Assembly (NCBI RefSeq): GCF_015711645.1
Contig: NZ_JABTEX010000002.1
Coordinates: 682,001-746,000 of the forward strand
From: Planomonospora sp. ID82291
GTDB taxonomy: Bacteria; Actinomycetota; Actinomycetes; Streptosporangiales; Streptosporangiaceae
Direction of reading: 5' to 3'
Length of the DNA: 64,000 nt
The notes below the pieces were generated by a model. The model searched no databases and had not been told where the DNA came from. It saw only the letters and a program-made list of their open reading frames with translations. Shown here in pieces: positions 12,848-48,170 of the stretch. Both the position numbers and the translations under genes were made by a program. Position 1 is the stretch's first letter, and the number at the start of each line of letters is the position of its first letter.

Positions 12848-14191
12848 ATGGGAGCGCCGGACGACGGGCACTGCGGGCCGTACCGACTGCTCTCGCCGCT
12901 GGGGGCGGGAGGCTTCGGAGCGGTCCACCTCGCGCTGGACCCCGAAGGGCGCACGGTGGCGGTCAAGGTCCTGCACCCGCACGTGGCGGCCGACGGCACG
13001 GCCCTGGCCCGGCTGGCCCGCGAGGTGGAGGCCATGCGCCGGGTGCGCAGCCCGCACGTCGCCGAACTCCTCGACGCCTCGCTGGACGGCGACCGCCCCT
13101 ACCTGGCCACCCGCTACGTTCAGGGCCGCCCGCTCGGCGCGGTGGTCGCCGCCGACGGCCCGGTCGCCGGGGACGACCTCGTCCGGCTGGCGCGCGGCCT
13201 GGCCGAGGCGCTGGCCGCGATCCACGCCGCGGGGGTGGTCCACCGCGACCTGAAGCCCGCCAACGTCATCTGCGAGGGCGGCGAGCCGGTCGTGATCGAC
13301 TTCGGCATCGCGTGCCTGCTCGACTCCGCGGCGGTCACCGCCTCCGGCGCGGTCCTCGGCACGCCGGGCTACCTCGCGCCGGAGGTCCTGGAGGGCGGCG
13401 GGGCGGGGCCGGAGGCCGACGTCTTCGCCTTCGCGGCCACGCTGGCCCACGCGGCGACCGGCCGCCACCCGTACGGCACCGGCCCGGCCTCGGCGGTCGG
13501 CTACCGGGTCGTGCACCACGATCCCGACCTCGACGACGTGCCGTCCTGGCTGGAGCCGCTGCTGCGGGAGTGCCTGGCCCGCGATCCGGCCGACCGGCCG
13601 ACCGCGGCTCTGCTGCCGCTGCGGCTCGGCGCCCCGGAGCCGGGGGTCCGTGCGGTCCGTGCGGGTGGCGGTGTTCCGGAGGCGGAGGTCCGTGCGGTCC
13701 GTGCGGGTGGCGGTGTTCCGGAGCCGGGGGTCCGTGCGGTCCGTGCGGGCGGCGGCGCCCCCGAAGCGGCGGTCCATGAGGCCTCGGCCGCCGGTGTGCA
13801 GGGGCTGAGCACCCGGGAGTGGCGTCCGGGCCGCCGCGTCCGGCCCGCGACCTTCCCGTCGGAGGCCCGCGAGCGCCGCCGGGCCGTGCTCCACCGGCGC
13901 TGGGTCGTCGGGACCGGCCTGTTCACGGCGCTGGCGGCCGCGACGGCCAAGCATCCGCTGCCCGAGGTCTCGCTGCTGCTGCTGACCCTCTACGGCTCGG
14001 CGATGCTCGTCGACGGGGGCGTGGCCCTGTTCGCGCGGCGGAACCGCGGTCGCGCGATCCTCGACCTGTCCTGCGCCGCCGGCGTCGTCGCGCTCTGGGT
14101 CGCGCTGGCGGCGTTCTTCAGCCCGCTCACCCTGGGCCTGGCGCTGGGCACCGTCGTCCTCGTGCTGGTGGTCATCCTGCTGAGCAGTTGA
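12848..14191 (+). CDS. Membrane-anchored Ser/Thr protein kinase, kinase 3
   Basis: The 447-residue protein is shorter than its two neighbours. The kinase domain has the loop 'GAGGFGAV', Lys40 in 'VAVKVL', catalytic 'HRDLKPANV' near residue 134, 'VIDFGIACLL', and 'GTPGYLAPEVL'. The activation segment lacks the TQTGMF stretch seen in kinases 1 and 2. A short linker holds three 14-residue repeats. The C-terminus has hydrophobic helices ('GLFTALAAATAKHPL', 'LLLLTLYGSAMLVDGGVAL', 'LGLALGTVVLVLVVILLSS'). The ATG at 12848 follows a GGAGGGA ribosome site; a longer frame upstream begins in a region with terminator hairpins and is rejected. It is probably a separate transcription unit, since terminators lie upstream. 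Confidence 0.88.
   Translation: MGAPDDGHCGPYRLLSPLGAGGFGAVHLALDPEGRTVAVKVLHPHVAADGTALARLAREVEAMRRVRSPHVAELLDASLDGDRPYLATRYVQGRPLGAVVAADGPVAGDDLVRLARGLAEALAAIHAAGVVHRDLKPANVICEGGEPVVIDFGIACLLDSAAVTASGAVLGTPGYLAPEVLEGGGAGPEADVFAFAATLAHAATGRHPYGTGPASAVGYRVVHHDPDLDDVPSWLEPLLRECLARDPADRPTAALLPLRLGAPEPGVRAVRAGGGVPEAEVRAVRAGGGVPEPGVRAVRAGGGAPEAAVHEASAAGVQGLSTREWRPGRRVRPATFPSEARERRRAVLHRRWVVGTGLFTALAAATAKHPLPEVSLLLLTLYGSAMLVDGGVALFARRNRGRAILDLSCAAGVVALWVALAAFFSPLTLGLALGTVVLVLVVILLSS
13646..13771 (+). repeat. 42-bp tandem repeat (three units) in kinase 3
   Basis: Units start at 13646, 13688 and 13730 and encode VRAVRAGGGVPEAE-type peptides, placed between the kinase domain and the membrane helices. 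The copies differ at only a few bases. Confidence 0.85.
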
Positions 14192-24084: not shown

Positions 24085-25191
24085 TCAGTAGCCGACGTAG
24101 CCGGTGCCGTTCTTCGTGCCGACCACTCCGGGCACCGCCGAGACGGATCCGTAGCGTTCGATGGCGTACCGGACCCCGGCGATGATGTTGTCCACCGGCG
24201 CGTAGATGTCCTTGTGGCCGGGGAGCGACCAGCGGTCGAAGGTCGGGTCGATGGTCTGCATCAGCCCCTTGGACGGGATGCCCGCCGCCGCGTTGGAGTC
24301 CCAGTTGTTGATCGCGTGCGGGTTCCCGCCGGACTCGTGCTGGATGATCATCCAGATGTCGCTGGGGTTCATCTTCTCGGCGGGGTACCCCTGGGCCTTG
24401 AGGATCTCGATCGCCTGCTCGATCCACTGCTTGACCTGACCGGTCGGCGCGGGCCCGCCGCCGGGCGGGGGCGGCCCGCTCGACCCGTAGCCGCCGAAGC
24501 CGCCGCCGCCGTTCCCGCCGGTGCCGTCGCCGCCGGTGCCGTCGCCGCCGTTCCCGGATCCGCCCTGCGGCCGGTAGCCCGCGGTCCGCTCCCAGTCGAC
24601 GGTACGGCCCGGCGCGGGCACGAACCGCTCGTCGCCCGGCGCCGCGATGCCCTCGAAGGTCGCGGGCCGCCCGGCCAGGTGCCCGGTGACCGCGTCCTTG
24701 GCCGCGGTCACGGCCTTGCCCGCGGTCTCGACGTGCGGACGGGCGTCCGAGACGGCCCGGCCGACCAGCGACCTGATGCCCGGCTCCAGGTCCTTGTCGG
24801 ATTTCCCGGGGTTCCTGCCGCGGTGGGCGGCCACCTGGTCCAGGAGCGTGCCCATGAGGGAACCGATTCTGGCCTCGGCGCTCTCCAGGGCCCCGGCCGC
24901 CGTGTCGAGGGCGGTCGCGCAGTCGGTCAGCGCGTCGTGCAGGGCGTCGCCGGCGCGGCCGTACCGGCGCATGTAGACGGCGAAGGCGTCGGCGGAGCCG
25001 CCCTGCCAGGCCGCGTCCACGTCGGAGACCGCGCCGCCGAGGCCGCCGGTGTACTCGCTCACCCGGCCCGCCGCGCTCCGCCAGCGGGCGGCGACGGCGC
25101 GGACGGCGGCCGGGTCGCCGTCGACCTTGCCCGCGAGTTCGGACAGCTCGGCGCCGCCCGGCAGCCGGGCCACCTCGTCCCTGAGGCTCAC
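24085..25191 (-). CDS. WXG-like / lytic transglycosylase fusion, probable type VII secretion cargo
   Basis: The 368-residue protein joins two parts. Residues 1-150 form helices with a WXG-like turn ('DAAWQGGSADAF', Trp62-Gln-Gly), as in ESX substrates. A Gly/Asp/Pro-rich linker (about 210-250) follows. The C-terminal domain is a lytic transglycosylase of the SLT type: the catalytic glutamate is in 'IIQHESGGNPHAINNWDS' near residue 285, followed by 'SKGLMQTIDPTFDRW' and 'NIIAGVRYAIERYGS'. Such enzymes cleave the glycan strand of peptidoglycan. No Sec signal is present. Its ATG overlaps the stop of the upstream WXG-like gene (ATGA), and both lie next to eccC. It probably leaves through the ESX channel and opens the wall. 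Confidence 0.82.
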   Translation of the reverse strand: MSLRDEVARLPGGAELSELAGKVDGDPAAVRAVAARWRSAAGRVSEYTGGLGGAVSDVDAAWQGGSADAFAVYMRRYGRAGDALHDALTDCATALDTAAGALESAEARIGSLMGTLLDQVAAHRGRNPGKSDKDLEPGIRSLVGRAVSDARPHVETAGKAVTAAKDAVTGHLAGRPATFEGIAAPGDERFVPAPGRTVDWERTAGYRPQGGSGNGGDGTGGDGTGGNGGGGFGGYGSSGPPPPGGGPAPTGQVKQWIEQAIEILKAQGYPAEKMNPSDIWMIIQHESGGNPHAINNWDSNAAAGIPSKGLMQTIDPTFDRWSLPGHKDIYAPVDNIIAGVRYAIERYGSVSAVPGVVGTKNGTGYVGY

Positions 25192-25615: not shown

Positions 25616-28600
25616 CTACCCGGTCCCGGTCTCGGTGGCGGTCCCGGTCTCGGTGGCGGTTCCGGTCCCGGTCTCGGTGGCGGTTCCGGGCGGCGGCGGG
25701 GGGGCGAGGAAGGCCGTCTGCACCAGGCGCGCGCCGTGCCGGCGGTCGGTGTGGTAGCCCCGGCCGGGCGGGAGCGGGTGCGGGCGCACGTTGCCGAACA
25801 GGGTGCCCTCGTCCTTGTTGCCGGACAGGATGACGGCCGGGGAGGCCATGTCCTTGATCCGCTGGATGACCGGGTCGAACATCGCCCGGCCGACGCCGCC
25901 CATCGCCCGCGACACGACCAGGTGCAGTCCGATGTCGCGGGCCTGCGGGATCAGGTCGACCAGGGGCAGCAGCGGGTTGGACGAGGTCGCCACCAGGTCG
26001 TAGTCCTCGACCACGATGTACAGGTCCGATCCCTGCCACCAGCTCCTGGAGCGCAGCTCCTCGGCGGTGAGGTTCGCCGGGGGCAGCCGCTTGAGCAGGG
26101 CGGCGCGCGCGTCGTTGACCAGTTCGAGCGCGGCCGCTCCGGAGGCGGCGTAGCCGATGCGGTGCTCGGTGGCGGCCGAGTCCAGCAGCGACCGCCGGTA
26201 GTCGATCACGATCATCATGGCCTCCTGCGGCGTGCGCCGGGCGACCAGTCCCTCGGTGACGAGCCGGAGCAGGTTGGACTTGCCGCTCTCGGTGTCGCCC
26301 ACCACGATGAAGTGCGGGTCGGCGTCGAAGTCCACCAGGACGGGGGAGAGGGACGCCTCGTCGATGCCGATGGGGATCCGGCTCCCGGTCTGCTCGGTTC
26401 CCGGCAGCGTCTCGGCGGGCAGCACCGCCGGCAGCAGCCGCACCCGCGGGGCCGCGGGGCCCTGCCAGGCGTCCCTGACCGCCTGGACGAGCGCGCGCAC
26501 CCCGGCCGGCAGGTCCTCGGCGCTGCGGACGCCGTCGATCCGGGGGACCGCCGACAGGAAGTGCAGCCCCTCCTTGGTGAGGCCGCGGCCCGGCACGCCC
26601 TCGGGCACGGCGAGCGAGGCCTTGCGGTTGACCTCCGACTCGTAGGCGTCGCCGAGCTTGAGCTCGATCCGGGTGCCGAACAGGTCGCGGATGCCGGGGC
26701 GGAACTCCGACCACTTGTTGGTGGCGGCCACCACATGGATGCCGTACCCGAGGCCGCGCGCGGCCAGGTCGGTGATGACGGGTTCGAGCGTCTCGAACTC
26801 CTGCCGGACGGTCAGCCAGCCGTCGACCACCAGGAAGACGTCGCCCCAGCCGTCGCCCTGAATCGCGCCGTCGGCGAGCTGCCGCCGGTAGGCGGCGATC
26901 GACTCGATGCCCTGCGCGGCGAAGTCCCGCTCGCGCCGCTGCAGGAGGGCGGCGATCTCGGCCACCGTACGGCGCACGCGGTCGGCGTCCAGACGGGTGG
27001 CGATCCCGCCCACGTGCGGCAGGGCCTCCAGCGAGGCGAGCGAGCCGCCGCCGAAGTCCAGGCAGTAGAACTGGACCTCGCGCGGCGTGTGGGTGAGCGC
27101 CATGCCGGTGATGAGCGTGCGCAGCACCGTGCTCTTGCCGCTCTGCGTCCCGCCGGCGACGCCGACGTGGCCGGCCGCGCCCGACAGGTCGAGCCAGAAC
27201 GGATCGCTGCGCTGCTCGAACGGCCGGTCGACGACGCCGGCGACGGCGTGCAGCCGGCCACGGCCGGCCCAGCCGGCCGTGGTGAGGCCGAGCTGCGGCG
27301 TGACGGACAGCGGCGGGAGCAGGTCGGCGAGGGTGGGGGGATCGCCCAGCGGGGGCAGCCAGATGCGGTGGGCGGGAGGGCCCTGGCCGCGCAGCCGGCC
27401 GACCACGACGTCGAGCAGGCTGGCGGCGTCCCTGCCGCCGTCCCCGCCGGTCCCGCCGTCCCCGCCGCCGGCCCGGTCCGGCGGCCCGTCCTGCGCCTCC
27501 GGCCGGCCGGCGGGCTCCTCGACGACGGGGAACGGGACGAACGCCGGGCCGTACGGCACGACCTGGCGGACGGGCCCGTGCGCGCCCGCCGCCCCCTGGT
27601 GCGGGTCCGCCTGGTAGGGGCCGGAGACGTAGGCGGCCTTGAACCGGGTCATCCCGGTGGTGTCGAACTTGAGGTAGCCGTTGCCGGGAGCGGGCGGCAG
27701 CTCGTAGGCGTCGGCGACGCCCAGCACGACCCGGCTCTCCATCGCCGAGAAGGTGCGCAGGCCGACCCGGTAGGACAGGTGGGTGTCCAGGCCGCGCAGC
27801 CGGCCCTCCTCCAGCCGCTGGGAGGCCAGCAGCAGGTGGACGCCGAGCGACCGGCCCAGCCGGCCGATCATCACGAACAGCTCGATGAACTCGGGCTTGG
27901 CCGCGAGCAGCTCGCTGAACTCGTCGATGACGACGAACAGGGTGGGCAGCGGCTGCAGCGGGACGCCCTGCTCGCGGGCGCGCTCGTAGTCGCGCAGCGA
28001 GGCGTAGTTGCCCGCGGCGCGCAGCAGCTCCTGGCGGCGGACCATCTCGCCGTGCAGCGCGTCGTGCATGCGGTCGACGAGGGGGAGCTCGTCCTCCAGG
28101 TTGGTGATGACCGCGGAGACGTGGGAGAGGGAGTCCAGGCCGAGGAAGGTGGCGCCGCCCTTGAAGTCGACCAGGACGAAGTTCAGGATCTCCGACGAGT
28201 GGGTCATGGCCAGGCCGAGGACCAGGGTCCGCAGCAGCTCGCTCTTGCCCGAGCCGGTGGCGCCGATGACCAGGCCGTGCGGGCCCATGCCGCCCTGCGC
28301 CGACTCCTTGATGTCGAGTTCGACCACCCGGCCGTCCCCGCCGAGGCCGATCGGCACCCGCAGCCGGTTGCGCCCGGCCCGGGGCCGCCAGACCACCGCC
28401 GGGTCGAGGAGGGCCGGGTCGCCCACCCCGAGCAGGTCGGTCAGCGAGGTGTTCGCCGTGAGCACGTCCTGCTCCTCGCCGCCCCGGGCGGTCGAGGCGC
28501 GCAGCGGGGCGAGCTGCCGGGCCAGGCCCTCGGCCCGCAGGAAGTCCAGCCGGTCGGGGTCGCCCAGCCGGGTCGAGCTCTCCTTGCCCGCGTGGTCGAC

Positions 28601-29710
28601 CTTGATCATGAAGAAGCCGTCCGGCCGGACGTCCAGCCGGAGCGTGCTCTTCTCCTCCACGGCGCCGGCGGTCCCGGACAGGTCGATGACGGTCACGCCC
28701 TGGATGGCGTCGGCGCCGAGCTGGGAGTCGTGCGGGATGTGCCCGCCGTCGACGATCAGCACGTGGTACGGCAGGGCGTCGGCGGAGGCGCCGGGCCGGA
28801 AGCGGGCGCGCTCCTTCAGGTCCTCGCCGACCAGCCGGTCGAGGTCGGCCAGGGTGCCGGACATGAGCCGGGCCTGGCCCGCGGCGTCGGCCTCCTCGGG
28901 GTGCAGCGCGTGCGGCAGCCACTTGACCCAGTCCCACTGCGCCATCCACTCGTCGCCCGCGCAGATCATGATCCGCAGGTCGTCGGGGGAGTGGAACACG
29001 GCCATCTGGGCGACCATCGCCCGGACCAGCGCGCGGACGGCCACCGGGTCGCCGGTCAGCCGGATCCGGGCGAAGGAGTGCAGGGCCACGGCGACCGGGA
29101 GGTGCGGGACGGTCGAGTGCGTCCGGACGAACCTGCGCAGCGCGCCGGCCGAGAGGGCGTCGAGGTCCTCGACCGGCTTGGAGTCCGGGGGGATCAGCTG
29201 CACGGCGAGCTTCTGCACGCCGGTGCCGAGCCGTACGGTGCCGAAGTCGTCGTCGCGGGGCCGCCGCTCCCACAGGCGCGGTCCCATGGCGATCCACCAC
29301 AGGGAGTCGGGGGCGGGGCTGCTCCATTCGAGCGCTTCCCGCTGCTGCACGGCGGCGCGCCGTACCCGCTTGCGGACCTGGGACAGGTAGCGGAAGTAGT
29401 CGCGGCGCAGGCCGTTGAGGCGGGACTTGCGCTCCCCGGACTGGCGGCCGAGCTGGCCGACGGTCATGCCGACCATGGACAGCGCGAACAGGCCGCTGGC
29501 GACGTACATGACCGGGTTGGCGTTGCCCCCGGCGGTGAACATCAGGCCCATGGCGGCGCCGCCCGCCAGCATGGGCAGGTAGGTCATCACCCCGGCGAAG
29601 CCCTGCGACTGGACCTCGGGGATCTCCGGAGGGGATTCGAGGAGGATCTCGCCCCGCGGCGGCTTGGGCGGGGGACGGCGCTCGGGACGCCGCACGACGA
29701 CGATGCTCAC
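25616..29710 (-). CDS. eccC: Type VII secretion ATPase EccC (FtsK/SpoIIIE)
   Basis: The 1364-residue protein is the motor of the ESX system. It starts 'VSIVVVRRPERRPPPKPPRGEILLESPPEIPE', has two N-terminal membrane helices ('YLPMLAGGAAMGLMF', 'VMYVASGLFALSMVGMTVG'), and then three FtsK-like ATPase domains. Walker A motifs are 'VIGATGSGKSELLR' near residue 485, 'GVAGGTQSGKSTVLR' near 853 and 'VVGDTESGKSNLLR' near 1140. Walker B of the first is 'FVVIDEFSELLA'. The GTG at 29710 follows AGGAGGG; the frame extends 35 codons further upstream but this start fits the family. The C-terminus ends in a Thr-Ala-Thr-Glu-Thr-Gly repeat tail not usual for EccC. It is a single-chain EccCab. The divergent gene is eccD. 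Confidence 0.95.
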   Translation of the reverse strand: MSIVVVRRPERRPPPKPPRGEILLESPPEIPEVQSQGFAGVMTYLPMLAGGAAMGLMFTAGGNANPVMYVASGLFALSMVGMTVGQLGRQSGERKSRLNGLRRDYFRYLSQVRKRVRRAAVQQREALEWSSPAPDSLWWIAMGPRLWERRPRDDDFGTVRLGTGVQKLAVQLIPPDSKPVEDLDALSAGALRRFVRTHSTVPHLPVAVALHSFARIRLTGDPVAVRALVRAMVAQMAVFHSPDDLRIMICAGDEWMAQWDWVKWLPHALHPEEADAAGQARLMSGTLADLDRLVGEDLKERARFRPGASADALPYHVLIVDGGHIPHDSQLGADAIQGVTVIDLSGTAGAVEEKSTLRLDVRPDGFFMIKVDHAGKESSTRLGDPDRLDFLRAEGLARQLAPLRASTARGGEEQDVLTANTSLTDLLGVGDPALLDPAVVWRPRAGRNRLRVPIGLGGDGRVVELDIKESAQGGMGPHGLVIGATGSGKSELLRTLVLGLAMTHSSEILNFVLVDFKGGATFLGLDSLSHVSAVITNLEDELPLVDRMHDALHGEMVRRQELLRAAGNYASLRDYERAREQGVPLQPLPTLFVVIDEFSELLAAKPEFIELFVMIGRLGRSLGVHLLLASQRLEEGRLRGLDTHLSYRVGLRTFSAMESRVVLGVADAYELPPAPGNGYLKFDTTGMTRFKAAYVSGPYQADPHQGAAGAHGPVRQVVPYGPAFVPFPVVEEPAGRPEAQDGPPDRAGGGDGGTGGDGGRDAASLLDVVVGRLRGQGPPAHRIWLPPLGDPPTLADLLPPLSVTPQLGLTTAGWAGRGRLHAVAGVVDRPFEQRSDPFWLDLSGAAGHVGVAGGTQSGKSTVLRTLITGMALTHTPREVQFYCLDFGGGSLASLEALPHVGGIATRLDADRVRRTVAEIAALLQRRERDFAAQGIESIAAYRRQLADGAIQGDGWGDVFLVVDGWLTVRQEFETLEPVITDLAARGLGYGIHVVAATNKWSEFRPGIRDLFGTRIELKLGDAYESEVNRKASLAVPEGVPGRGLTKEGLHFLSAVPRIDGVRSAEDLPAGVRALVQAVRDAWQGPAAPRVRLLPAVLPAETLPGTEQTGSRIPIGIDEASLSPVLVDFDADPHFIVVGDTESGKSNLLRLVTEGLVARRTPQEAMMIVIDYRRSLLDSAATEHRIGYAASGAAALELVNDARAALLKRLPPANLTAEELRSRSWWQGSDLYIVVEDYDLVATSSNPLLPLVDLIPQARDIGLHLVVSRAMGGVGRAMFDPVIQRIKDMASPAVILSGNKDEGTLFGNVRPHPLPPGRGYHTDRRHGARLVQTAFLAPPPPPGTATETGTGTATETGTATETGTG
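25619..25690 (-). repeat. 18-bp tandem repeat at the eccC 3' end
   Basis: Near-identical repeats of a CGGTCTCGGTGG-containing unit (top strand) encode a Thr-Ala-Thr-Glu-Thr-Gly tail ending the protein. The tail lies just after the third ATPase domain, where substrates are thought to bind. Confidence 0.8.
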
Positions 29711-29899
29711 CCTGGAAATGCCCTCCTGTGCCCGGACGTCTTTCCCGCCGCCGGCGGACGCGTCCACCGGCGCGGCCCGGCGGCGCCTGACGGCCGACCG
29801 CCGCGCGTGATCCACATTGTGCCGCTACCGTATCGGCCATATCCGAGATATCCCCTATGTCGGTGATATTCGTGATGCCCACGGGAGAGGGAAACGGCT
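29711..29899. promoter_or_regulatory. Divergent eccC/eccD promoter region
   Basis: This 189-base gap is more AT-rich than the genes. It holds a direct repeat ATATCC-gag-ATATCC at 29839-29853 and a further GATAT at 29865-29869. Both the leftward eccC and rightward eccD operons must start here. The repeat could be a shared regulator site. No -10/-35 pair stands out clearly. Confidence 0.45.
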
Positions 29900-31348
29900 G
29901 TGCTACCGCTGAGTCAACCACCCGTCCAGGGACCGGGACCGCAGGGGGTGGCGGTCCGGTCCGCCGCGCCGCTGCCGCCGCTGTGCCACGTCACGATCGT
30001 GGCCCCCCGCGTGAAGGCCGACCTGGCGCTGCCCGCGGACATCCCGCTGCCGCACATCCTGCCGGGCCTGCTGCAGGCGGTGGGCGAGACGGGCGGCGGC
30101 GCCGCCGCGGTCCCCGTCTGGGTGCTCCAGCGGATCGGGGGCGCCCCCCTCGACCTCGGACAGAGCCTGGGCGCCCTGGGGGTGCTCGACGGCGAGGTGC
30201 TCTACCTGCGCCCCCGCGACGCGGTGCTGCCCCCGGCGGTCTTCGACGACGTGGCCGACGTGGTCGCCACCAGCGTCAAGGAGGGGCCGAGCAACTGGGA
30301 GAAGCGGCACACCCGGCTGACCGGGCTGGGGGCCGCGATGGCGCTCCTGCTGACCGGGACGGTGGCGCTGGTGGCCGCCGGGCCTCCCTGGACGGTCCCC
30401 GCGGTGCTCGCCGGGGTGCTGGCGCTCCTGCTGGTCGGCGCCGGCGGCGCGGTCTCGCGGGCGCTGGGCGACTCCGCGGCGGGCGCGCTGATCGGCTACG
30501 CGGCCCTGCCGTACGGCTTCCTCGCCGGACTGCTGGCCCCGGCCGGCCTGGCGGACTCCCCGGGCGGGTTCGGCGCGCCGCACCTGCTGTCGGCGTTCGC
30601 CGTCACCGTCTTCACGGCCACCGCCGGCGGGATCGCGATCGCCGACGGCGTGCCGGGCTTCATGGGGACCGGCGTGGCCGCGGCGGCCGGGGCGGCGGCG
30701 GCCGGGATCGTGATGCTCTCGGACGCCTCCCCCGCCGGGGTGGCGGCGGTGACGGCCTCGATCCTGCTGGCGCTCGGCTCCGCGGTCCCGATGCTGGCGT
30801 TCCGGATCGCCCGGCTGCCGATGCCGGCGATGCCGACCAACGCCGAGGAACTGCGCGCCGACAACCAGCGGGTCGACGGCGAGGCCATCCGGGAGCGCAC
30901 CGGCCGGGCGCAGCGCTACGCGACCGGGATGGTGGCCGGGATCGCGCTGGCGGCGCTGGTCACCCAGGCGTACCTGCTGCTGGACGGCCGCTGGATCGCG
31001 ATCGCCACGGCGCTGGTGCTGGCGGCGGCGCTCGTCATGCGGGCCCGCGTCTTCCAGGGACTCGGCCAGCGGCTCTGGCTGACGCTCGCCGCGGTCGCCG
31101 GGCTCGCGGCGTTCGCGGTCGGGCAGGCGGTCACCGGCGGCGGCGGTGCGGCGATCGCCGTGGTGGTGGCGCTGCTGTGGGCCGCCGCGGTCCCCGCGGG
31201 CCTGGGGTTGTGGCTCCCGTCGGGCCGGCCGTCGCCGTTCTGGGGGCGGGCCGGCGACATCATCGAGGTCCTGCTCGTGGTCGCGCTGTTCCCGCTCGCC
31301 CTCGGCGTGCTGGACGTCTACGCCTGGGTGCGCGGCCTGGCGGGGTGA
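29900..31348 (+). CDS. eccD: Type VII secretion integral membrane protein EccD
   Basis: The 482-residue product has a ubiquitin-like (YukD) N-terminal domain of about 90 residues ('CHVTIVAPRVKADLALPADIPLPHILPGLLQA' and 'LDLGQSLGALGVLDGEVLYLRPRD') and then about 11 membrane helices from residue 145 onward. In the ESX core complex EccD dimers line the membrane pore beside EccB and EccC. The start is GTG 29900 after GGGAGAGGGAAAC. The gene is divergent from eccC and upstream of the YbaB-like and WXG100 genes. The fold and context make the identification firm. Confidence 0.92.
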   Translation: MLPLSQPPVQGPGPQGVAVRSAAPLPPLCHVTIVAPRVKADLALPADIPLPHILPGLLQAVGETGGGAAAVPVWVLQRIGGAPLDLGQSLGALGVLDGEVLYLRPRDAVLPPAVFDDVADVVATSVKEGPSNWEKRHTRLTGLGAAMALLLTGTVALVAAGPPWTVPAVLAGVLALLLVGAGGAVSRALGDSAAGALIGYAALPYGFLAGLLAPAGLADSPGGFGAPHLLSAFAVTVFTATAGGIAIADGVPGFMGTGVAAAAGAAAAGIVMLSDASPAGVAAVTASILLALGSAVPMLAFRIARLPMPAMPTNAEELRADNQRVDGEAIRERTGRAQRYATGMVAGIALAALVTQAYLLLDGRWIAIATALVLAAALVMRARVFQGLGQRLWLTLAAVAGLAAFAVGQAVTGGGGAAIAVVVALLWAAAVPAGLGLWLPSGRPSPFWGRAGDIIEVLLVVALFPLALGVLDVYAWVRGLAG

Positions 31349-32161: not shown

Positions 32162-32488
32162 GTGGCGGATTTCTTCGGTGCCAGTCCGGCACAGATCAAG
32201 CAGGCGTCGGAGCTCGTCGTCGACACCGCGCAGTACATCGAGGGTCTCCGCAAGGGCGTGCAGACCACTGCGCAGGAGCTGACCGCCACGGGGTGGCTGG
32301 GCACCGCGTCGGCCAGGTTCCTGCAGGCCATGACCAAGTGGGACGAGCAGATGATGATCGTCCGGCGTGACCTGGAGTCCATCGCGCAGAAGATGGGCGA
32401 CAACTCCATCACCTACAGCGCGGCCGACCAGGACGTGCAGAGCGGCATGAACAGGGTGGACGCCCTCATCAACACCGGCGCCCGGTGA
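32162..32488 (+). CDS. WXG100-family type VII secretion substrate 1
   Basis: The 108-residue protein is a typical ESX helical hairpin. Helix 1 is 'SPAQIKQASELVVDTAQYIEGL', the turn is 'GWLGTASARFL' (Trp-Leu-Gly), and helix 2 runs to 'NSITYSAADQDV'. The tail 'YSAAD' matches the YxxxD/E C-terminal export signal. It should form a 1:1 dimer with the next gene product, bind EccC, and be exported without a Sec signal. Its GTG start has a near-perfect GGAGGT ribosome site, so it is probably one of the most strongly expressed genes of the locus. Confidence 0.92.
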   Translation: MADFFGASPAQIKQASELVVDTAQYIEGLRKGVQTTAQELTATGWLGTASARFLQAMTKWDEQMMIVRRDLESIAQKMGDNSITYSAADQDVQSGMNRVDALINTGAR

Positions 32489-32551: not shown

Positions 32552-32851
32552 GTGTCCGACTATACGAAGGTCAACTTCGTGCAGATGGAGCAGGCCCAGG
32601 TGGGACTCCTCCAGGTCGTCACCAACATGGACAAGGCCACCGACGACCTCATCACCAAGCTCAAGACGGTTCTGGGCGACAGCTGGGCCGGCGACGCCGC
32701 GGACTTCTTCGAGGAGCACCGCAAGATCTGGGACGCCGCCGAGCAGGAGATGGGGCGCCAGCTCAACGAGGCCGCCGTCGCCCTCGGCACCGCCAACGAG
32801 AACTACAAGGCGGCCGAGGCGCGCAACCGGGCGATCTGGTCCGACAGCTGA
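32552..32851 (+). CDS. WXG100-family type VII secretion substrate 2
   Basis: The 99-residue protein is the second member of the pair. It has 'DSWAGDAADFFEEHRKIWD' with Trp-Ala-Gly in the turn, and 'NENYKAAEARNRAIWSDS' near the C-terminus, which holds a YxxxE motif. Family knowledge suggests an antiparallel heterodimer with the first WXG100 protein, held by the hydrophobic faces of the hairpins. The start is GTG 32552 after GGACGGAG. A large nested hairpin begins 10 bases after the stop codon and may limit read-through. Confidence 0.92.
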   Translation: MSDYTKVNFVQMEQAQVGLLQVVTNMDKATDDLITKLKTVLGDSWAGDAADFFEEHRKIWDAAEQEMGRQLNEAAVALGTANENYKAAEARNRAIWSDS

Positions 32852-40564: not shown

Positions 40565-42010
40565 CTACGGCCGGGCCGGGGCCGCCGCCGGCTGCTCGAC
40601 CCGCACCGGCACCCGAGCGGCGGCCGGGTCGAGCGCCGGTCCCTCCGGGATCAGGTGCACCAGGTGGGCCGGGAGCGGGGCGACGTCCCCGTCGGCGTAG
40701 CCGAGGCTCTGCAGCGCCTCCGGTGAGGGGATCGCGTGCCGCCGCCCCTGGTCGCCGATCAGGTAGAGCGAGCGCACCGCGTCCAGCCGGCCGTCCCCCG
40801 GCAGCAGTCCCACGAGCGCGCCGGAGCCGGGCGGGAGCACCACCTGGTCGACCGTGGCCTGGTCGAAGCGCTCGTTCGGGGGCGCGGGGATCCGTACCGT
40901 GCTCTCGACGGTCAGCGTCGCCTGCGCCGATCCGCGCGCCGTGCCGGAGTAGACGGCGCAGAGCGGGTCCGCCGGGTCCGGCTCGATGACCTTCGGCATG
41001 GTCTCGGGGAGCCCGGTGGCGTCCAGGCGGGTCTTGGAGACCCGCGTCGCGTTCGCGGTCGCGGCGTCCAGCGTGATCGCCCGGACCGGCGCGCGGCCGT
41101 ACGCCTTCTTGGTGGCGGGGTTCTGCAGGAGCAGGTCCGCCTGGACGGGGGTGAGGCTCGCCAGCCCGTCGGGGAGCAGCACGTACCACTTGGCGGGGCC
41201 GCCGACGGCCGGCGGCACGGTGTACACCCGGCCCGCCGCGGCCGTGCGGCCGTCCGGCCCGCGCATCGCGCGGCCCAGCCCCGGGATCCACGGGCTGCGC
41301 AGGTCGGGCCCGGCGGGCAGCGCGTTGAGCCAGGCGGCCGGGACCTGCCGGCGCCCTCCCTCCGGCATCGCCCGCACGCTGTCGGACGCCACCCGCATCC
41401 GCCGGTTCGACCAGAGCATCCAGGTCTGTCCGCCCTCCTCGACCACCATGGCGGAGTCCTGCCCGATCGGGCGCCCCCCGACCTCGAAGCCGCCGATCAG
41501 GGACGTGTACGGCCTGCGCGCGCCGGCGGCGTCGGTGCCCTCCACCACGCAGGCCGACCACGGGGAGCGGACCAGGCGGCCGGGCGCGGGCAGCGACTCC
41601 GGCGCGCCCGGGATGCCCACCAGCGTGCCCCGGGTGAAGCGGGCGAGCGAGGCCGAGGTCACCGTCCGGACCTTCGCGTCCTGCGTGCCCAGGAGCAGCC
41701 GGGCGGAGGCCACGTTGGCGACGGGGATCATCCGCCGCTGCGGGGCGCTGTAGACGAACGTCGCGCCCGACTCCTCCTCGACGAGGACCGTGCCGGGTTC
41801 GGTGAGCGCGGTCGCGCCGCCCGGGCGCAGCAGTCCCAGCACGCCGAAGACGACCGCCACCAGGACGGCGGCCAGGACGGCGCAGAACATCGCCACGTTG
41901 TACCGGCGCATCGGCGACTCGGGTAGATCCGGCTCGCCCTGCAGCAGAGCCGTGCCCAGCCGCTGGGTCATCAGCCGGTAGGCCTGGTAGAGATCGCGAC
42001 GGGTCTGCAT
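40565..42010 (-). CDS. eccB: Type VII secretion protein EccB
   Basis: The 481-residue protein is a core ESX component. It begins 'MQTRRDLYQAYRLMTQRLGTALLQGEPDLPESPMRR', has one membrane helix ('VAMFCAVLAAVLVAVVFGVLGLL') near residue 40-65, and a large extracytoplasmic domain built of repeated blocks. Conserved residues such as 'YVLLPDGLASLTPVQADLLL' near residue 285 and 'GQTWMLWSNRRMRV' are typical. EccB assembles on the outer face of the membrane pore with EccD and EccC. The ATG at 42010 is well placed. It stands alone on the minus strand between two rightward operons, so it has its own promoter in the 42011-42328 gap. Confidence 0.93.
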   Translation of the reverse strand: MQTRRDLYQAYRLMTQRLGTALLQGEPDLPESPMRRYNVAMFCAVLAAVLVAVVFGVLGLLRPGGATALTEPGTVLVEEESGATFVYSAPQRRMIPVANVASARLLLGTQDAKVRTVTSASLARFTRGTLVGIPGAPESLPAPGRLVRSPWSACVVEGTDAAGARRPYTSLIGGFEVGGRPIGQDSAMVVEEGGQTWMLWSNRRMRVASDSVRAMPEGGRRQVPAAWLNALPAGPDLRSPWIPGLGRAMRGPDGRTAAAGRVYTVPPAVGGPAKWYVLLPDGLASLTPVQADLLLQNPATKKAYGRAPVRAITLDAATANATRVSKTRLDATGLPETMPKVIEPDPADPLCAVYSGTARGSAQATLTVESTVRIPAPPNERFDQATVDQVVLPPGSGALVGLLPGDGRLDAVRSLYLIGDQGRRHAIPSPEALQSLGYADGDVAPLPAHLVHLIPEGPALDPAAARVPVRVEQPAAAPARP

Positions 42011-42328
42011 TCCACCTCCGTCTCGCCGGACACGCGATAGCCGACAGCATAGAAGCGCGATCAAGGAGTTGCCCCGTCCGAGACGGAAAAGGGATCTTCT
42101 TCCCTTCCCGGGCCGGCGCCGGACCGGCGGAAGGGGGCCGCCGGGCCGCGGGGACGGGAGCGGTCGCAGGGCTCGGGGAAGCGGCCGGAAAGCCCGCGGA
42201 CATCCGCAGGTCGCCGGGCGTTCACACGGGCCTCGTAGTCTCGGGGCCGTTGCCGGGCCGTTGCCGGGCCGTACGCGCCGCGATGCGCGGCCCGGCCGGT
42301 CCGGGGACGGCCAGACGGTGCGGAGACG
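42011..42328. promoter_or_regulatory. Divergent region between eccB and the 42329 gene
   Basis: This 318-base stretch has no plausible gene. It contains AAGGGA-TCTTCT-TCCCTT (42089-42106), a perfect 6-bp inverted repeat, and a GCCGTTGCCGGGCC direct repeat near 42247-42270. The eccB side (42045-42065) is AT-richer and should hold that promoter. Confidence 0.4.
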
Positions 42329-42667
42329 ATGTCGGAGGCGGGTCGATTGGCTCCTCAGCAGCCCGGATACGAGGTGGCCGCCGGGCACCTGGAGAAGTTC
42401 GCGGGAATCACGGGGGCGGCGGCCACCGAGGTGCAGGGCACGGTGGACGGCACCCCGCGCTTCGAGGGGTGGAACCTCGTCCCGCTCGCGGGCGTCCCCC
42501 TCGTCGGCCTGCTCTTCGTCAACCGGCTCAACGCCGTCGCCGACACCTGGGCGGACGGCGCGAAGATCCTGCGGGAGACCCTCGGCTCGGACGCCGAGCG
42601 GCTGATGCGGGTGGCCGCCACGTACGTGCAGGTGGAGCGGGCGAACGAGGCGAGAGGGAATCGGTGA
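42329..42667 (+). CDS. Small ESX-like helical protein
   Basis: The 112-residue protein has an N-terminal helix ('GYEVAAGHLEKFAGITGAAATEVQGTV'), a short hydrophobic centre ('VPLAGVPLVGLLFVNRL'), and a C-terminal helix with 'TYVQVERANEARGNR', a YxxxE motif as in ESX export signals. Trp49 in 'FEGWNLVP' might mark the turn, but it is not a WXG motif. Its stop overlaps the next gene's GTG, so it is translated with the 42664 protein. It probably serves as its partner. Confidence 0.62.
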   Translation: MSEAGRLAPQQPGYEVAAGHLEKFAGITGAAATEVQGTVDGTPRFEGWNLVPLAGVPLVGLLFVNRLNAVADTWADGAKILRETLGSDAERLMRVAATYVQVERANEARGNR

Positions 42668-44399: not shown

Positions 44400-45593
44400 T
44401 CAGAGGAGGGCGCGCCGCGGTCCGCCGGACGGAGCGGCGGGGCGCCGGCCGCCCGGCCGCCATCCGCGCCGCCGGCCCAGCGGGACGACCACCCCGGCCA
44501 GGACGGCCAGGACGGCCGCGGAGAGGGAGAACAGGGCCACCCGGCCCGCGATCGCCATCCCCTGGACGTCCTCGGCGGGCGCCGGCCGCACCGCGCCGGG
44601 CGGCAGCGGGGCGGGGTCCTGCGGCGCGATCGCGACCGTCTCCGGCAGGATGGCGGACACGGCCAGCAGCGGGTTGACCATCCCCGCGCCGGTGCCGGAA
44701 CCGGAGGCGCCGTCGGCGGTCAGCTCGATGCGCCGCCGTACCCGCACCTGGTCCAGCCCGGGATGGCGGGCGCGCACCAGCGCGGCCACCCCCGCGACGT
44801 ACGGCGCGGCGAAACTGGTCCCCTCCAGGTCCTCCCGGTAGGCGCGGCCCGGCCAGGGGGCGGTGACGGCGGTGCCGGGGGCGAGGACGGAGACGGGGGT
44901 CGACGCGTTGGACGAGCCCGCCCTGCCGCCCTCGGGGCCCGCCGAACCGACGGAGAGCACGCCCGGGTAGGCGGCCGGGTAGGCGGGCGCCGCCGAGCCG
45001 TCGGCCCGCTGGACGTTGCCCGCCGCGGCGACCACCACCACGTCCTGGGCCAGGGCGTAGTCGACCGCGGCCTTCAGGTCCGGTTGGTCGGCCGCCTGGA
45101 TGGAGACGTTGATCACGTCCGCGCCGAGCTCGACGGCGCGCACGATCCCCTGGGCCAGCTTGCCCACGTCGCCGTTGCTCTCGTTGGTCTGCTTGATCGA
45201 GATCAGCTTGGCGCGGGGGGCGACGCCCGTGAACGGCACCCCCCGGATCTCGGTTCCCGCGATGATGCCCGCCACGGCCGTGCCGTGCCCGACGCAGTCG
45301 TAGTCGTGCGTGCCGGTGAGGTCGACCGACGAGGCCACCTTCAGCTGCGGGTGCCGGGTGTCCACGCCGCTGTCCACGATCGCCACCGTCACCCCCACGC
45401 CCTTGGTGAGCCGCCAGACCTCCGGCAGGTTCAGGCGCCGCTGCGCCCACGACTCGCCGATGCTCGTCGTCCCGCGCTGCGGAGTGCAGTCGGAGCGCGC
45501 GGCCCCGCCCGTCGCCCCGCCCGCCGTGCTCCCCGCGGCGGACGGGGCGACGACCGCGAGCGCCAGCGCACCCGCGGCGAGCCTTGTGATCAC
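44400..45593 (-). CDS. mycP: Mycosin, subtilisin-like serine protease MycP
   Basis: The 397-residue protein begins with a Sec signal peptide ('MITRLAAGALALAVVAPSAAG'), followed by an S8 protease domain. The triad is Asp in 'VAIVDSGVDTRHP', His in 'DCVGHGTAVAGIIAGTE', and Ser in 'DLEGTSFAAPYVAGVAAL'. The oxyanion Asn is in 'VVAAAGNVQRADG'. A Pro-rich linker and one C-terminal membrane helix ('VALFSLSAAVLAVLAGVVVPLG') anchor it outside the cell. Mycosins cap the ESX pore and process substrates. GTG 45593 is used. The gene lies 180 bases downstream of the pseudokinase gene on the same strand, behind a terminator hairpin. Confidence 0.93.
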   Translation of the reverse strand: MITRLAAGALALAVVAPSAAGSTAGGATGGAARSDCTPQRGTTSIGESWAQRRLNLPEVWRLTKGVGVTVAIVDSGVDTRHPQLKVASSVDLTGTHDYDCVGHGTAVAGIIAGTEIRGVPFTGVAPRAKLISIKQTNESNGDVGKLAQGIVRAVELGADVINVSIQAADQPDLKAAVDYALAQDVVVVAAAGNVQRADGSAAPAYPAAYPGVLSVGSAGPEGGRAGSSNASTPVSVLAPGTAVTAPWPGRAYREDLEGTSFAAPYVAGVAALVRARHPGLDQVRVRRRIELTADGASGSGTGAGMVNPLLAVSAILPETVAIAPQDPAPLPPGAVRPAPAEDVQGMAIAGRVALFSLSAAVLAVLAGVVVPLGRRRGWRPGGRRPAAPSGGPRRALL

Positions 45594-45700
45594 GGAATCC
45601 TCACCTCCGTGCGGACGGCCGCGGTACGGCCGCCCGCCGAACTCGATCGGGCGCCGTCCCCGCGGGTTCCGGAAGAGGGACCGCGGAAACGGCCGGAAGG

Positions 45701-45733
45701 CCCCTCCCGGAGGCGGGGGCCGTCCGGGAGGGG
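45701..45733 (-). terminator. Terminator hairpin after the pseudokinase gene
   Basis: CCCCTCCCGG (45701-45710) pairs perfectly with CCGGGAGGGG (45724-45733) around a 13-base loop. On the minus strand it follows the 45774 stop and precedes mycP, so mycP needs its own promoter or read-through. Confidence 0.65.
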
Positions 45734-45773
45734 CGTCGCGGTCTCAGGCCCGGAGCGGGCCCTCAGGACGGGA

Positions 45774-48170
45774 TCAGCCGCAGTTCCCCCAGTCCGAGGA
45801 GGTCTGGCCGCCGGGGCCGCCGCCGGAGAAGCGCACGCACTTGCCCCTGGCGGGCAGGACGACCGGTCCGGCGTGGCCCTCGGAGCCCCTGCCGCTCAGG
45901 GAACCGCCTCCCTGCACGTCGAGCGTGGCCCAGAGCGGGCCCGCCTTGCCCGCGTCGGCGCCCTTGACGGTGACGACGCAGGTGTTCCCGGTGGACGCGT
46001 TGTGCAGCTGGTGGACCGTCCCGCCGGTGAACGACAGGGAGCGCTGCGGGACGTACCCCGCTCCGCAGATCTCCTGCGGGCTACGGAACGTTATGAGCTG
46101 CGACGGGTCGAACCCCGTGGCGGTGGGCTTGGCCGTGCTGGGCGGGTTCCACGTGGGAATCGAGCCGTCCGCGGTGGGCTTGGCCGTGGGGACCGGGGCG
46201 GTCGGCTTGGCCGGCACCGTGGGCTTGGCCGTCGGCTTGGCCGTGGGGGCCAGGGCGGTCGGCTTGACCGTGGCCGTCGGCTTGGCCGTGGCCGTGGGCT
46301 TGGCCGTCGGCTTGGCCGTGACCGTCGGCTTGGCCGTGACCGTCGGCTTGGCCGGGGCGGTCGGCTTGGCCGTGGGCGTCACCGACGGGGTCACCGTGAG
46401 ACCTGCCGAGGGCGCCACCGTGGGGAGCGCCGAGGGCGACACCGTGGGGAGCGCCGAGGGCGCCACCGAGGGCGACACCGTGGGGAGCGCCGACGGTGAC
46501 ACCGAGGGCGACACCGTGGGGCTCGCCGTGGGGCTCACCGAGGGCGACGGCACGGGCGAGTCCGTGGGCTGCGGGGACTCCGGAGCCGGTTGCGGCGTCA
46601 CCGTGAGGGTCACCGTGGGCTGCGGCGTCGGCGGCTGCTGCGTCGTGGTGGCCGAGGCGGCCGGCGCGGCGGTGGGGGTCTGCTGCGTGCCGGACCGGTC
46701 CGTCGGCTGCGGCGCCGCGGTCGACGGGACGGGGACCGGCGGGGGGGTGAGCGAGCTCAGCGTCGGAACGGGTGCGCCGGTGGGGACGGCGGGGACGTCG
46801 GTGGGCAGCTGCAGCGGCCCGACGTCGCCCTCCCGCGGCTCCGGCGTCGTCCCCCAGGGCACCGTGACCCGGTTCACCGGGGCGTCCCCGGTGCCCTGCC
46901 CCGTACCCGATCCCTGGCCACCGTCCGTGCCCTGGTCCTCTCCCCGTCCGGCCAGTTCCAGCGGGATCCGGGGATCGGCCCCGTCGGCGGCCGTCCGCCC
47001 GGCGTTCTCCAGGGAGGTGTAATTGCCCGCGGCCCAGACGCCGAGCCCTGACAGCAGGGCGACCACGCCCACGCAGACCGCCAGCAGGAGGGAGAGCCCT
47101 CCGGTCTTCGGCCGCTCCTTGACGGGTGCGGTGAGCACCGTCACGTTCGCCGGCGGCGCCTGATCCCCCGGCAGGGGCGGCGCGCCCCAGATCTGGGGCG
47201 GGGCGGGCGGGGGCGCGCCGACACCGGGCTGCCCGGCGGCACCCGGCACGACCTCTCCCCGCAGGTCGTCGCCGGGGAGGACCGGACGGTGCTCCGGGGG
47301 GACGGGTACGGCGGACAGGACGCGGTCCTCGGGGCGTTCGCCGAGCAGCCGCAGCATGGCCGCTCCCGCGTCCGGCCGGGCCTCCGGGCGCTTGTCCAGG
47401 CAGGCCGCGATGAGCGGGCGGAGCGTCGCCGGGATGCCGTCCAGATGGGCGGGCCCCTCCAGCACCAGCTCGGGCCGGCCTCCGTAGGGCGGCCGCCCCG
47501 TGGCCGCGTAGGCGACCGTGGCGGCCCAGGCGAACAGGTCGGCGGGCTTCGCGGCCGCCACGGGGGCGGGAGCCGTGCCCGGAGCCGGGGCCGGGGACGC
47601 GCCGACGGCGCCGGGGACGCCTCCGGGCGGGAAGCCCGCCCGGAGGCGTTCGGGCGCGACGTAGTCCGGCTCGGAGCCCGCCGCGCCGAGGCCGATGTCG
47701 CAGACCCGGGGGCCGTCGGGACCCAGGAGCACCGTGTCGGGGGTGAGCCCGCCGTGGACGATTCCGGACATGTGGACGGCGGTGAGGGCGTTGAGCGTGC
47801 CCACGGCGAGCCGTTCCAGCGCGTCCCCGGTGAGCGGTCCGTCCTCGGCCACCGTCTCGCGGAGCGAACGCCCGTCGACGTGCTCGCGGACCACGTACGG
47901 CACGTCGTCGAACCAGCCCGCCTCGATCAGCCGGGCGGTGTGGGCTCCCGAGACCCGCCTGGCCGCGTTCAGACCGTTGGTGATCCGCTCCCGGGCCTGC
48001 GGATCGGCATCCGGGCAGGGGGCCAGCATGCGGATCACACGGGGTGTGTCGTCGTCCAGCAGATGACCCAGGTAGACGGCCTGCCCAGGATCGGGGGAGA
48101 ACCGCCCCACCAGAACGTATATACCGATACGTTCCGGATCACTAGGCAGCAATGGGTGTAAATCGCCCAT
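45774..48170 (-). CDS. Probable pseudokinase with membrane helix, Pro/Thr/Lys stalk and extracellular Cys domain
   Basis: The 798-residue protein has a kinase-like domain in residues 15-290, but key residues are lost. There is no glycine loop ('YVLVGRFSPDPGQAVYLG'), the ATP lysine position is Arg47 ('RVIRML'), the catalytic loop reads 'VHGGLTPDTVLL' instead of HRDLKPxN, so the catalytic Asp is Gly141, and DFG is 'DIG' (158-160). A membrane helix lies near 357-380 ('LLLAVCVGVVALLSGLGVW'). Residues about 535-685 are a Thr/Pro/Lys/Ser repeat stalk, and the end holds a domain with Cys in 'EICGAGY', 'NTCVVTV', 'GKCVRF' and 'GNCG'. ATG 48170 follows GGAAGGAA. It may sense the cell wall and signal to the ESX machine by binding rather than phosphorylation. 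Confidence 0.75.
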   Translation of the reverse strand: MGDLHPLLPSDPERIGIYVLVGRFSPDPGQAVYLGHLLDDDTPRVIRMLAPCPDADPQARERITNGLNAARRVSGAHTARLIEAGWFDDVPYVVREHVDGRSLRETVAEDGPLTGDALERLAVGTLNALTAVHMSGIVHGGLTPDTVLLGPDGPRVCDIGLGAAGSEPDYVAPERLRAGFPPGGVPGAVGASPAPAPGTAPAPVAAAKPADLFAWAATVAYAATGRPPYGGRPELVLEGPAHLDGIPATLRPLIAACLDKRPEARPDAGAAMLRLLGERPEDRVLSAVPVPPEHRPVLPGDDLRGEVVPGAAGQPGVGAPPPAPPQIWGAPPLPGDQAPPANVTVLTAPVKERPKTGGLSLLLAVCVGVVALLSGLGVWAAGNYTSLENAGRTAADGADPRIPLELAGRGEDQGTDGGQGSGTGQGTGDAPVNRVTVPWGTTPEPREGDVGPLQLPTDVPAVPTGAPVPTLSSLTPPPVPVPSTAAPQPTDRSGTQQTPTAAPAASATTTQQPPTPQPTVTLTVTPQPAPESPQPTDSPVPSPSVSPTASPTVSPSVSPSALPTVSPSVAPSALPTVSPSALPTVAPSAGLTVTPSVTPTAKPTAPAKPTVTAKPTVTAKPTAKPTATAKPTATVKPTALAPTAKPTAKPTVPAKPTAPVPTAKPTADGSIPTWNPPSTAKPTATGFDPSQLITFRSPQEICGAGYVPQRSLSFTGGTVHQLHNASTGNTCVVTVKGADAGKAGPLWATLDVQGGGSLSGRGSEGHAGPVVLPARGKCVRFSGGGPGGQTSSDWGNCG
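46130..46560 (-). repeat. Repeat tract coding a Pro/Thr/Ser/Lys stalk
   Basis: Units such as ACCGTGGGGAGCGCCGAGGG and GTCGGCTTGGCCGTG (top strand) are repeated many times. They encode two blocks: Ser-Pro-Ser-(Ala/Val)-Leu-Pro-Thr-Val and then Lys-Pro-Thr-(Ala/Val). The tract forms an extended extracellular spacer. Confidence 0.85.

Follow-up and report, generated by a model that had tools for sequence, protein, structure and literature searches.

A putative pseudokinase with a stalk-borne outer domain is encoded beside the mycosin gene in ESX-4-like type VII secretion loci of Streptosporangiaceae

The stretch of Planomonospora sp. ID82291 DNA that we analyzed (the window, 64,000 nucleotides) encodes, among the genes of a type VII secretion system (T7SS), a kinase-like membrane protein (Table 1). 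Its ORF is a real gene, as can be seen from a start codon at which family-wide conservation of sequence begins, a ribosome-site-like GGAAGGAA upstream of that ATG, and a GC3 of 0.91. T7SSa is described as EccB–EccC–EccD–(EccE)–MycP. The window carries EccB, EccC, EccD, MycP, and WXG100 proteins, while no EccE was found in the source genome, which makes the system T7SSa of the ESX-4-like kind. According to the excerpted text of PMC4791881, in which the word kinase is absent, Streptosporangium roseum has one ESX-type cluster, and ESX-4 lacks EccE. For the Rv3446c-type ESX-4 protein, we obtained only weak sub-cut-off matches in the source genome and none in the window. The WXG100 protein that carries an SLT transglycosylase domain is a candidate secreted wall hydrolase. 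Its gene adjoins that of EccC, and such fusions are often found next to the pseudokinase gene in Nonomuraea and Microbispora loci.

Table 1. Features of the pseudokinase gene and of the surrounding window
Feature	Position	Strand	Remarks
Pseudokinase gene	45774..48170	minus	798 aa, ATG at 48170
Predicted cytoplasmic pseudokinase domain, residues 1-290	47301..48170	minus	alignment, AlphaFold2, structure comparison
Predicted single membrane helix, residues about 359-380	47031..47096	minus	hydropathy
Pro/Thr/Ala/Ser-rich stalk, residues 386-690	46101..47015	minus	composition
Four-Cys outer beta domain (predicted), residues 691-798	45777..46100	minus	alignment and model
15-pair GC hairpin in pseudokinase-mycosin gap	45700..45734	minus	whole-gap folding z -4.3
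Mycosin MycP	44400..45593	minus	TIGR03921 269 bits, just below cut-off 279
EccB	40565..42388	minus	
EccC ATPase, no FHA match	25616..29815	minus	profile match
EccD with YukD ubiquitin-like domain	29900..31348	plus	profile match
WXG100 protein	32162..32488	plus	profile match
WXG100 protein	32552..32851	plus	profile match
WXG100 plus SLT transglycosylase	24085..25191	minus	candidate wall-acting substrate
Intact kinase domain 1	8118..8855	plus	VAVK, HRDLKPxN, DFG
Intact kinase domain 2	10544..11278	plus	VAVK, HRDLKPxN, DFG
Intact kinase domain 3	12881..13609	plus	VAVK, HRDLKPxN, DFG

The pseudokinase gene lies 180 nt from the mycosin gene. The hairpin in this gap is possibly a U-poor terminator; a search of the gap for a U-tailed one found none. 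Since so strong a hairpin means that co-transcription is not assured, the two genes adjoin but may not share a transcript.

The N-terminal domain has a Hanks-type kinase fold. Residues 57 to 269 match the Pfam Pkinase profile (PF00069) with 32.5 bits (cut-off 31.7); of the 56 kinase matches in the 7.58-Mb genome, only one is weaker. All 48 members of the family that were searched match the profile at E ≤ 0.01. With a 48-row alignment as input (the window protein and 47 homologues), AlphaFold2 predicted a kinase fold with a mean pLDDT of 89.3 over residues 1 to 288 and a pTM of 0.87. The closest solved folds among the matches listed are PknB/Stk1-type kinases (9ymt, Z 25.2, rmsd 3.2, 246 residues aligned). 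The features of an active Ser/Thr kinase (HRD Asp, catalytic-loop Lys, DFG, and a full activation loop) are nevertheless not all there. When the protein is aligned with two of the window's active kinases, the glycine loop is replaced by S/D/Q, the β3 Lys by Arg, the αC Glu by Gly, HRD by HGG, and both the catalytic-loop Lys and Asn by Thr, while the stretch from DFG to APE counts 17 residues versus 29. The alignment therefore confirms what the initial annotation had said of the glycine loop, the ATP lysine, the HRD aspartate, and the catalytic-loop Asn, although that account left unmentioned that the DFG Asp (in DIG) and APE are retained. Judged from sequence, the kinase fold is intact and the catalytic machinery is gone.

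The remainder of the chain was also described as intact, with a membrane helix and a four-Cys outer domain, and this was borne out by hydropathy, which gives a helix flanked by Lys/Arg on the kinase side, and by cysteines at positions 702, 731, 778, and 797. The "roughly 150-residue" stalk is present, but it is only the most extreme half (residues 545 to 690, 90% S/T/P/K/A/V) of a low-complexity region of about 300 residues (22% Pro, 18% Thr, and 14% Ala over residues 386 to 690). The outer domain, corresponding to the last 108 residues, was modeled as a beta domain with a pLDDT of 84.8 (model of 128 residues). All 49 aligned rows share its four cysteines (every row except the window's own was pre-chosen for four Cys), and an unselected count found them in 72 of 74 complete ORFs, the exceptions having two (L136) or one (L140). 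Comparison with Pfam, NCBIfam, and PDB returned nothing credible (best Z 6.4), and a plasmid search returned two records, neither with an annotated feature under the match; the domain may resemble spore-associated protein A. It is also found in short open frames.

How far do these features extend beyond the window? A scan of 84,980 species genomes, which overlaps in species with a first locus set collected through the outer domain, produced 77 loci. We counted 81 family ORFs in 73 of them, leaving out four loci (L142 to L145, seven ORFs) that encode other kinases. Three of these four, L142 to L144 from Planobispora and Nonomuraea, show another pseudokinase-like type (HGDxRP, β3 Arg) in tandem with an intact kinase. 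The HRD Asp is replaced in every family ORF (Gly in 54, Ser in 16, and Ala in 11) and the catalytic-loop Lys is kept in none, while the DFG-to-APE loop measures 13 to 18 residues in all 81. The DFG Asp, on the other hand, is kept in 81/81, the catalytic-loop Asn in 72/81, and the β3 Lys in 68/81 (Arg in 12, and one ORF is cut); the αC Glu position is mostly Arg (53/81). The view that the protein is likely an inactive kinase, to be doubted if homologues retained the catalytic residues, thus withstands this survey, in which no homologue has the HRD Asp or the catalytic-loop Lys, with the correction that the β3 Lys and Asn mostly persist outside the window's clade.

Linkage to ESX genes, the other point on which homologues could have contradicted the initial annotation, is steady, with mycP no more than 700 bp away in 66 of 73 loci. 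MycP is on the pseudokinase strand in 67 of 69 MycP hits, and Ecc homologues occur within the same stretch in 51 of the 73 loci. Among the seven loci with no mycP that close, three end at contig ends (L110, L126, and L133), one is cut at a contig end and has EccB (L130), two have MycP at 2.8 kb (L086) and 2.1 kb (L116), and L136 has no MycP in the stretch examined. Rearranged loci keep the linkage: depending on the genus, MycP comes before or after the pseudokinase gene, and the nearest Ecc gene is EccB or EccC/EccD. The genera include Planomonospora, Streptosporangium, Sphaerisporangium, Nonomuraea, Microbispora, Microtetraspora, and Sinosporangium. In the species-genome scan, the closest relative comes from Planomonospora parontospora (89% identity over the kinase domain). 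The first locus set, made of stretches around 38 outer-domain matches, better ones and some weaker, or their surroundings, gave a similar picture after L054, L056, and L060, which have the outer domain without a kinase, were dropped. It holds 39 kinase-like ORFs: 26 lack the HRD Asp, and their 23 loci all have a mycosin homologue, while 13 are canonical kinases in 12 loci, with a mycosin only in L061 (seven of the stretches are just 11 kb).

We also examined genomes drawn without regard to the pseudokinase gene. In 61 genomes of the order, the pseudokinase profile gave nine matches of 384 to 441 bits in eight genomes, the other kinases listed scoring at most 280 bits, and these eight are exactly the genomes in which a mycosin scores at least 371 bits (a second such mycosin in one of them, G013, contig C470, sits at a contig end). 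Six loci of the bacterial family with more distant mycosins (L155 to L160) have no pseudokinase gene in a 19-kb stretch, so the gene is not needed by all T7SSa. In the class, 17 of 296 genomes match at E ≤ 1e-75, all within the window's family, with at most eight candidates scored per genome, so that a distant case could be missed. We rejected the idea that the pseudokinase replaces EccE: no EccE scores above cut-off in any of 57 genomes of the bacterial family, including mycosin-bearing ones without the pseudokinase, so the absence of EccE is wider and is not explained by the pseudokinase gene.

A tree built from 58 kinase domains puts all 30 sampled pseudokinases (the window protein and 29 of the 81 family ORFs) on one side of a branch with support of 100/100. 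All family members have lost the HRD Asp, the catalytic-loop Lys, and a good part of the activation loop, and the Planomonospora/Streptosporangium branch has further lost the glycine loop, β3 Lys, and Asn, a distribution that points to stepwise loss of the catalytic residues. Since most homologues outside the window's clade keep the ATP-binding Lys and Asn, nucleotide binding may have been lost only locally, in that clade.

Constraint was estimated by a crude method from one pair, with a Planomonospora homologue. The kinase domain is 91% identical at the amino acid level (dN 0.053, dS 0.246), while the outer domain is under weaker constraint (dN 0.124, dS 0.139, dN/dS about 0.9) and, from this single pair, may be evolving fast. 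We rejected a scenario in which a diversifying outer domain is joined to a fixed kinase domain, since the two ends are about equally conserved over 150 random locus pairs (mean identity of 0.57 and 0.60). Tandem copies in two genomes (L031 and L032) have kinase domains that are 100% identical in nucleotides and outer domains that are 97 to 99% identical, with stalks only about 52% identical in amino acids. This indicates that both ends are constrained and the linker is free, and we read the tandem pattern as concerted evolution. In two genomes (G094, L146/L061; G112, L150), a canonical active kinase of related architecture is divergent from mycP in an ESX locus, possibly a picture of the ancestral state.

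Taken together, the catalytic loss across the clade, the topology, the conserved end domains, the free-running stalk, and the steady MycP linkage lead us to propose that the ESX-4-like T7SSa of Streptosporangiaceae has in this protein a dedicated membrane subunit or accessory without catalytic function, a docking pseudokinase with a stalk-borne outer domain; we would put the chances of this as even. The docking or tethering role is suggested by anatomy and precedent. In such a subunit, the cytoplasmic pseudokinase would serve as a protein-docking module turned toward EccC or the ubiquitin-like domain of EccD, and the single helix would anchor the protein in the membrane. The extended stalk would cross the peptidoglycan and present the small beta domain, probably disulfide-bonded, on the side where mycosin acts, with the wall, a substrate, or MycP as its possible ligand. 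Several findings pull the other way: the hairpin in the gap to mycP, the outer-domain dN/dS, the six mycosin loci without the gene, the active related kinases beside MycP in L146 and L150, and an EccC that lacks the FHA domains used by YukB to contact YukC. Because no FHA match was found on EccC (E ≤ 0.01) or elsewhere in the window, the partner would have to be another surface, for which the EccD ubiquitin-like domain is a candidate. A bolder version, which we advance only tentatively and think less likely than not, is that in Streptosporangiaceae T7SSa a resident receptor kinase was the source of a pseudokinase core subunit, acquired independently of the EssB lineage. Pseudokinases would then have entered type VII secretion a second time, here with a sensor or tether that spans the wall toward mycosin.

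The initial annotation had suggested an analogy with mycobacterial MviN, a pseudokinase that controls wall synthesis, by which ESX activity might be linked to the cell wall and the nearby active kinases could phosphorylate the protein. In this reading, as we extend it, a regulatory pseudokinase, phosphorylated by or dimerized with active kinases, would couple wall signals to secretion. The genome has kinases in plenty (the 56 matches), including an active paralogue with the same type of outer domain (L062, G000:C9:1065335, HRD and DFG intact). The three kinases at 8 to 14 kb, 32 to 40 kb from the gene, were rightly taken as active, to go by their motifs, and active relatives that adjoin MycP in two genomes mean that a signaling origin fits as well. 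However, the analogy calls for a phospho-acceptor read by an FHA protein, and the search for such partners was unrewarding: all six FHA domains found in the genome lie outside the window, and the closest one on this contig is ~18 kb beyond the window end. The outer part differs as well, none of the three window kinases belongs to the conserved neighborhood of the gene, and the two placed in the tree are both outside the pseudokinase clade. We therefore consider a MviN-like regulator unlikely, if still a serious contender. Less probable again is a domain re-purposed rather than dead, either nucleotide-binding or an enzyme without phosphotransfer, for which the logic of SelO or SidJ is the model. 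The residues that hold Mg-ATP in kinases are indeed largely there (DFG Asp, β3 Lys, and Asn), but the window clade has Arg and Thr in place of Lys and Asn, the αC Glu is mostly Arg, and no SelO-type family is found among the Pfam matches of 48 members.

We see little prospect for a surface receptor or recognition protein (for phage, a neighbor cell, or a wall ligand) that merely neighbors the ESX locus. The outer-domain type is widespread: many kinds of protein match it, often without ESX linkage, and 95 of 121 order genomes have at least one match. The pseudokinase form, however, is nearly always ESX-linked, and those unlinked forms that were tested proved to be active kinases. A decaying kinase gene hitch-hiking in the locus, which stepwise loss of active-site residues might suggest, is already largely refuted and very improbable, given the four cysteines in nearly all complete ORFs, purifying selection on the kinase domain, linkage kept through rearrangement, and a high-confidence predicted fold.

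Many soil actinomycetes thus encode, next to the mycosin, a dead kinase whose long stalk bears a small outer domain with four Cys, which suggests that one piece of the export machine has its origin in a signaling enzyme. We found no report of a pseudokinase in a T7SSa locus among the titles and abstract starts listed by searches of the open-licence literature, and the excerpted text of PMC11217815 assigns kinases or pseudokinases to T7SSb through e and to T7SSh, with none named for T7SSa. A clade-wide pseudokinase locked to MycP would add a component to the T7SSa machine outside mycobacteria and make convergence with EssB testable. Non-pathogenic strains that bear it would be a place to ask why type VII secretion repeatedly employs dead kinases.

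Among known systems, the active actinobacterial kinases with a four-Cys outer domain (L062, L047, L052, and L150) are homologous at both ends but have canonical HRDxKPxN and DFG, a loop of 25 to 29 residues, and mostly no MycP beside them. According to the excerpted text of PMC11217815, TscD, TsdD, and TseD (T7SSc to e) and TshM (T7SSh) are likewise membrane kinase-like proteins in T7SS loci, but they belong to subtypes other than the EccB/EccD/MycP machine, and TscD keeps its active site. Membership in two actinobacterial pseudokinase classes, as defined in an excerpted source, was rejected. ActPs1 has all three catalytic residues substituted and often a PQQ-type C-terminal domain, while here the DFG Asp is invariant and the window protein has no PQQ match; ActPs2 has Asn for the HRD Asp and a long activation-loop insertion, while here Gly, Ser, or Ala stands in that position and the loop is short. 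ActPs3, the class of the mycobacterial MviN/MurJ pseudokinase, is defined there by full degradation of the catalytic motifs, an activation-loop deletion, and a C-terminal TM. Our family is similarly actinobacterial and membrane-linked, with the loop deletion and the TM, but it is not fused to MviN, its DFG Asp is invariant, its β3 Lys is mostly kept, and the window offers no FHA partner.

With EssB/YukC of the T7SSb of Bacillota, the protein shares a cytoplasmic pseudokinase, one membrane helix, and an extracellular C-terminal part (a topology given here by hydropathy only), a short activation loop with lost catalytic motifs, and a gene that accompanies a type VII secretion system. It differs in its long stalk and outer beta domain, in a machine that is T7SSa with an ATPase lacking an FHA match, and in having PknB-type kinases as the nearest solved folds listed. 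At E ≤ 0.01, the window protein matched no EssB/YukC family in Pfam or NCBIfam, and 48 members matched none in Pfam; neither EssB nor MviN is among the best 50 structure matches listed, which excludes neither. In the excerpted text of PMC9600267, YukC is an interaction hub that contacts the ATPase via FHA domains and lacks ATP binding, and the YukC–YukD interaction signal is weak; that route to the ATPase would be missing in our system. Our best reading is that the pseudokinase works like EssB/YukC, though outside that family by profile, with a contact to the machine that we infer. Because topology and kind of machine are the same, EssB/YukC is, by this comparison, a closer functional analogue than MviN.
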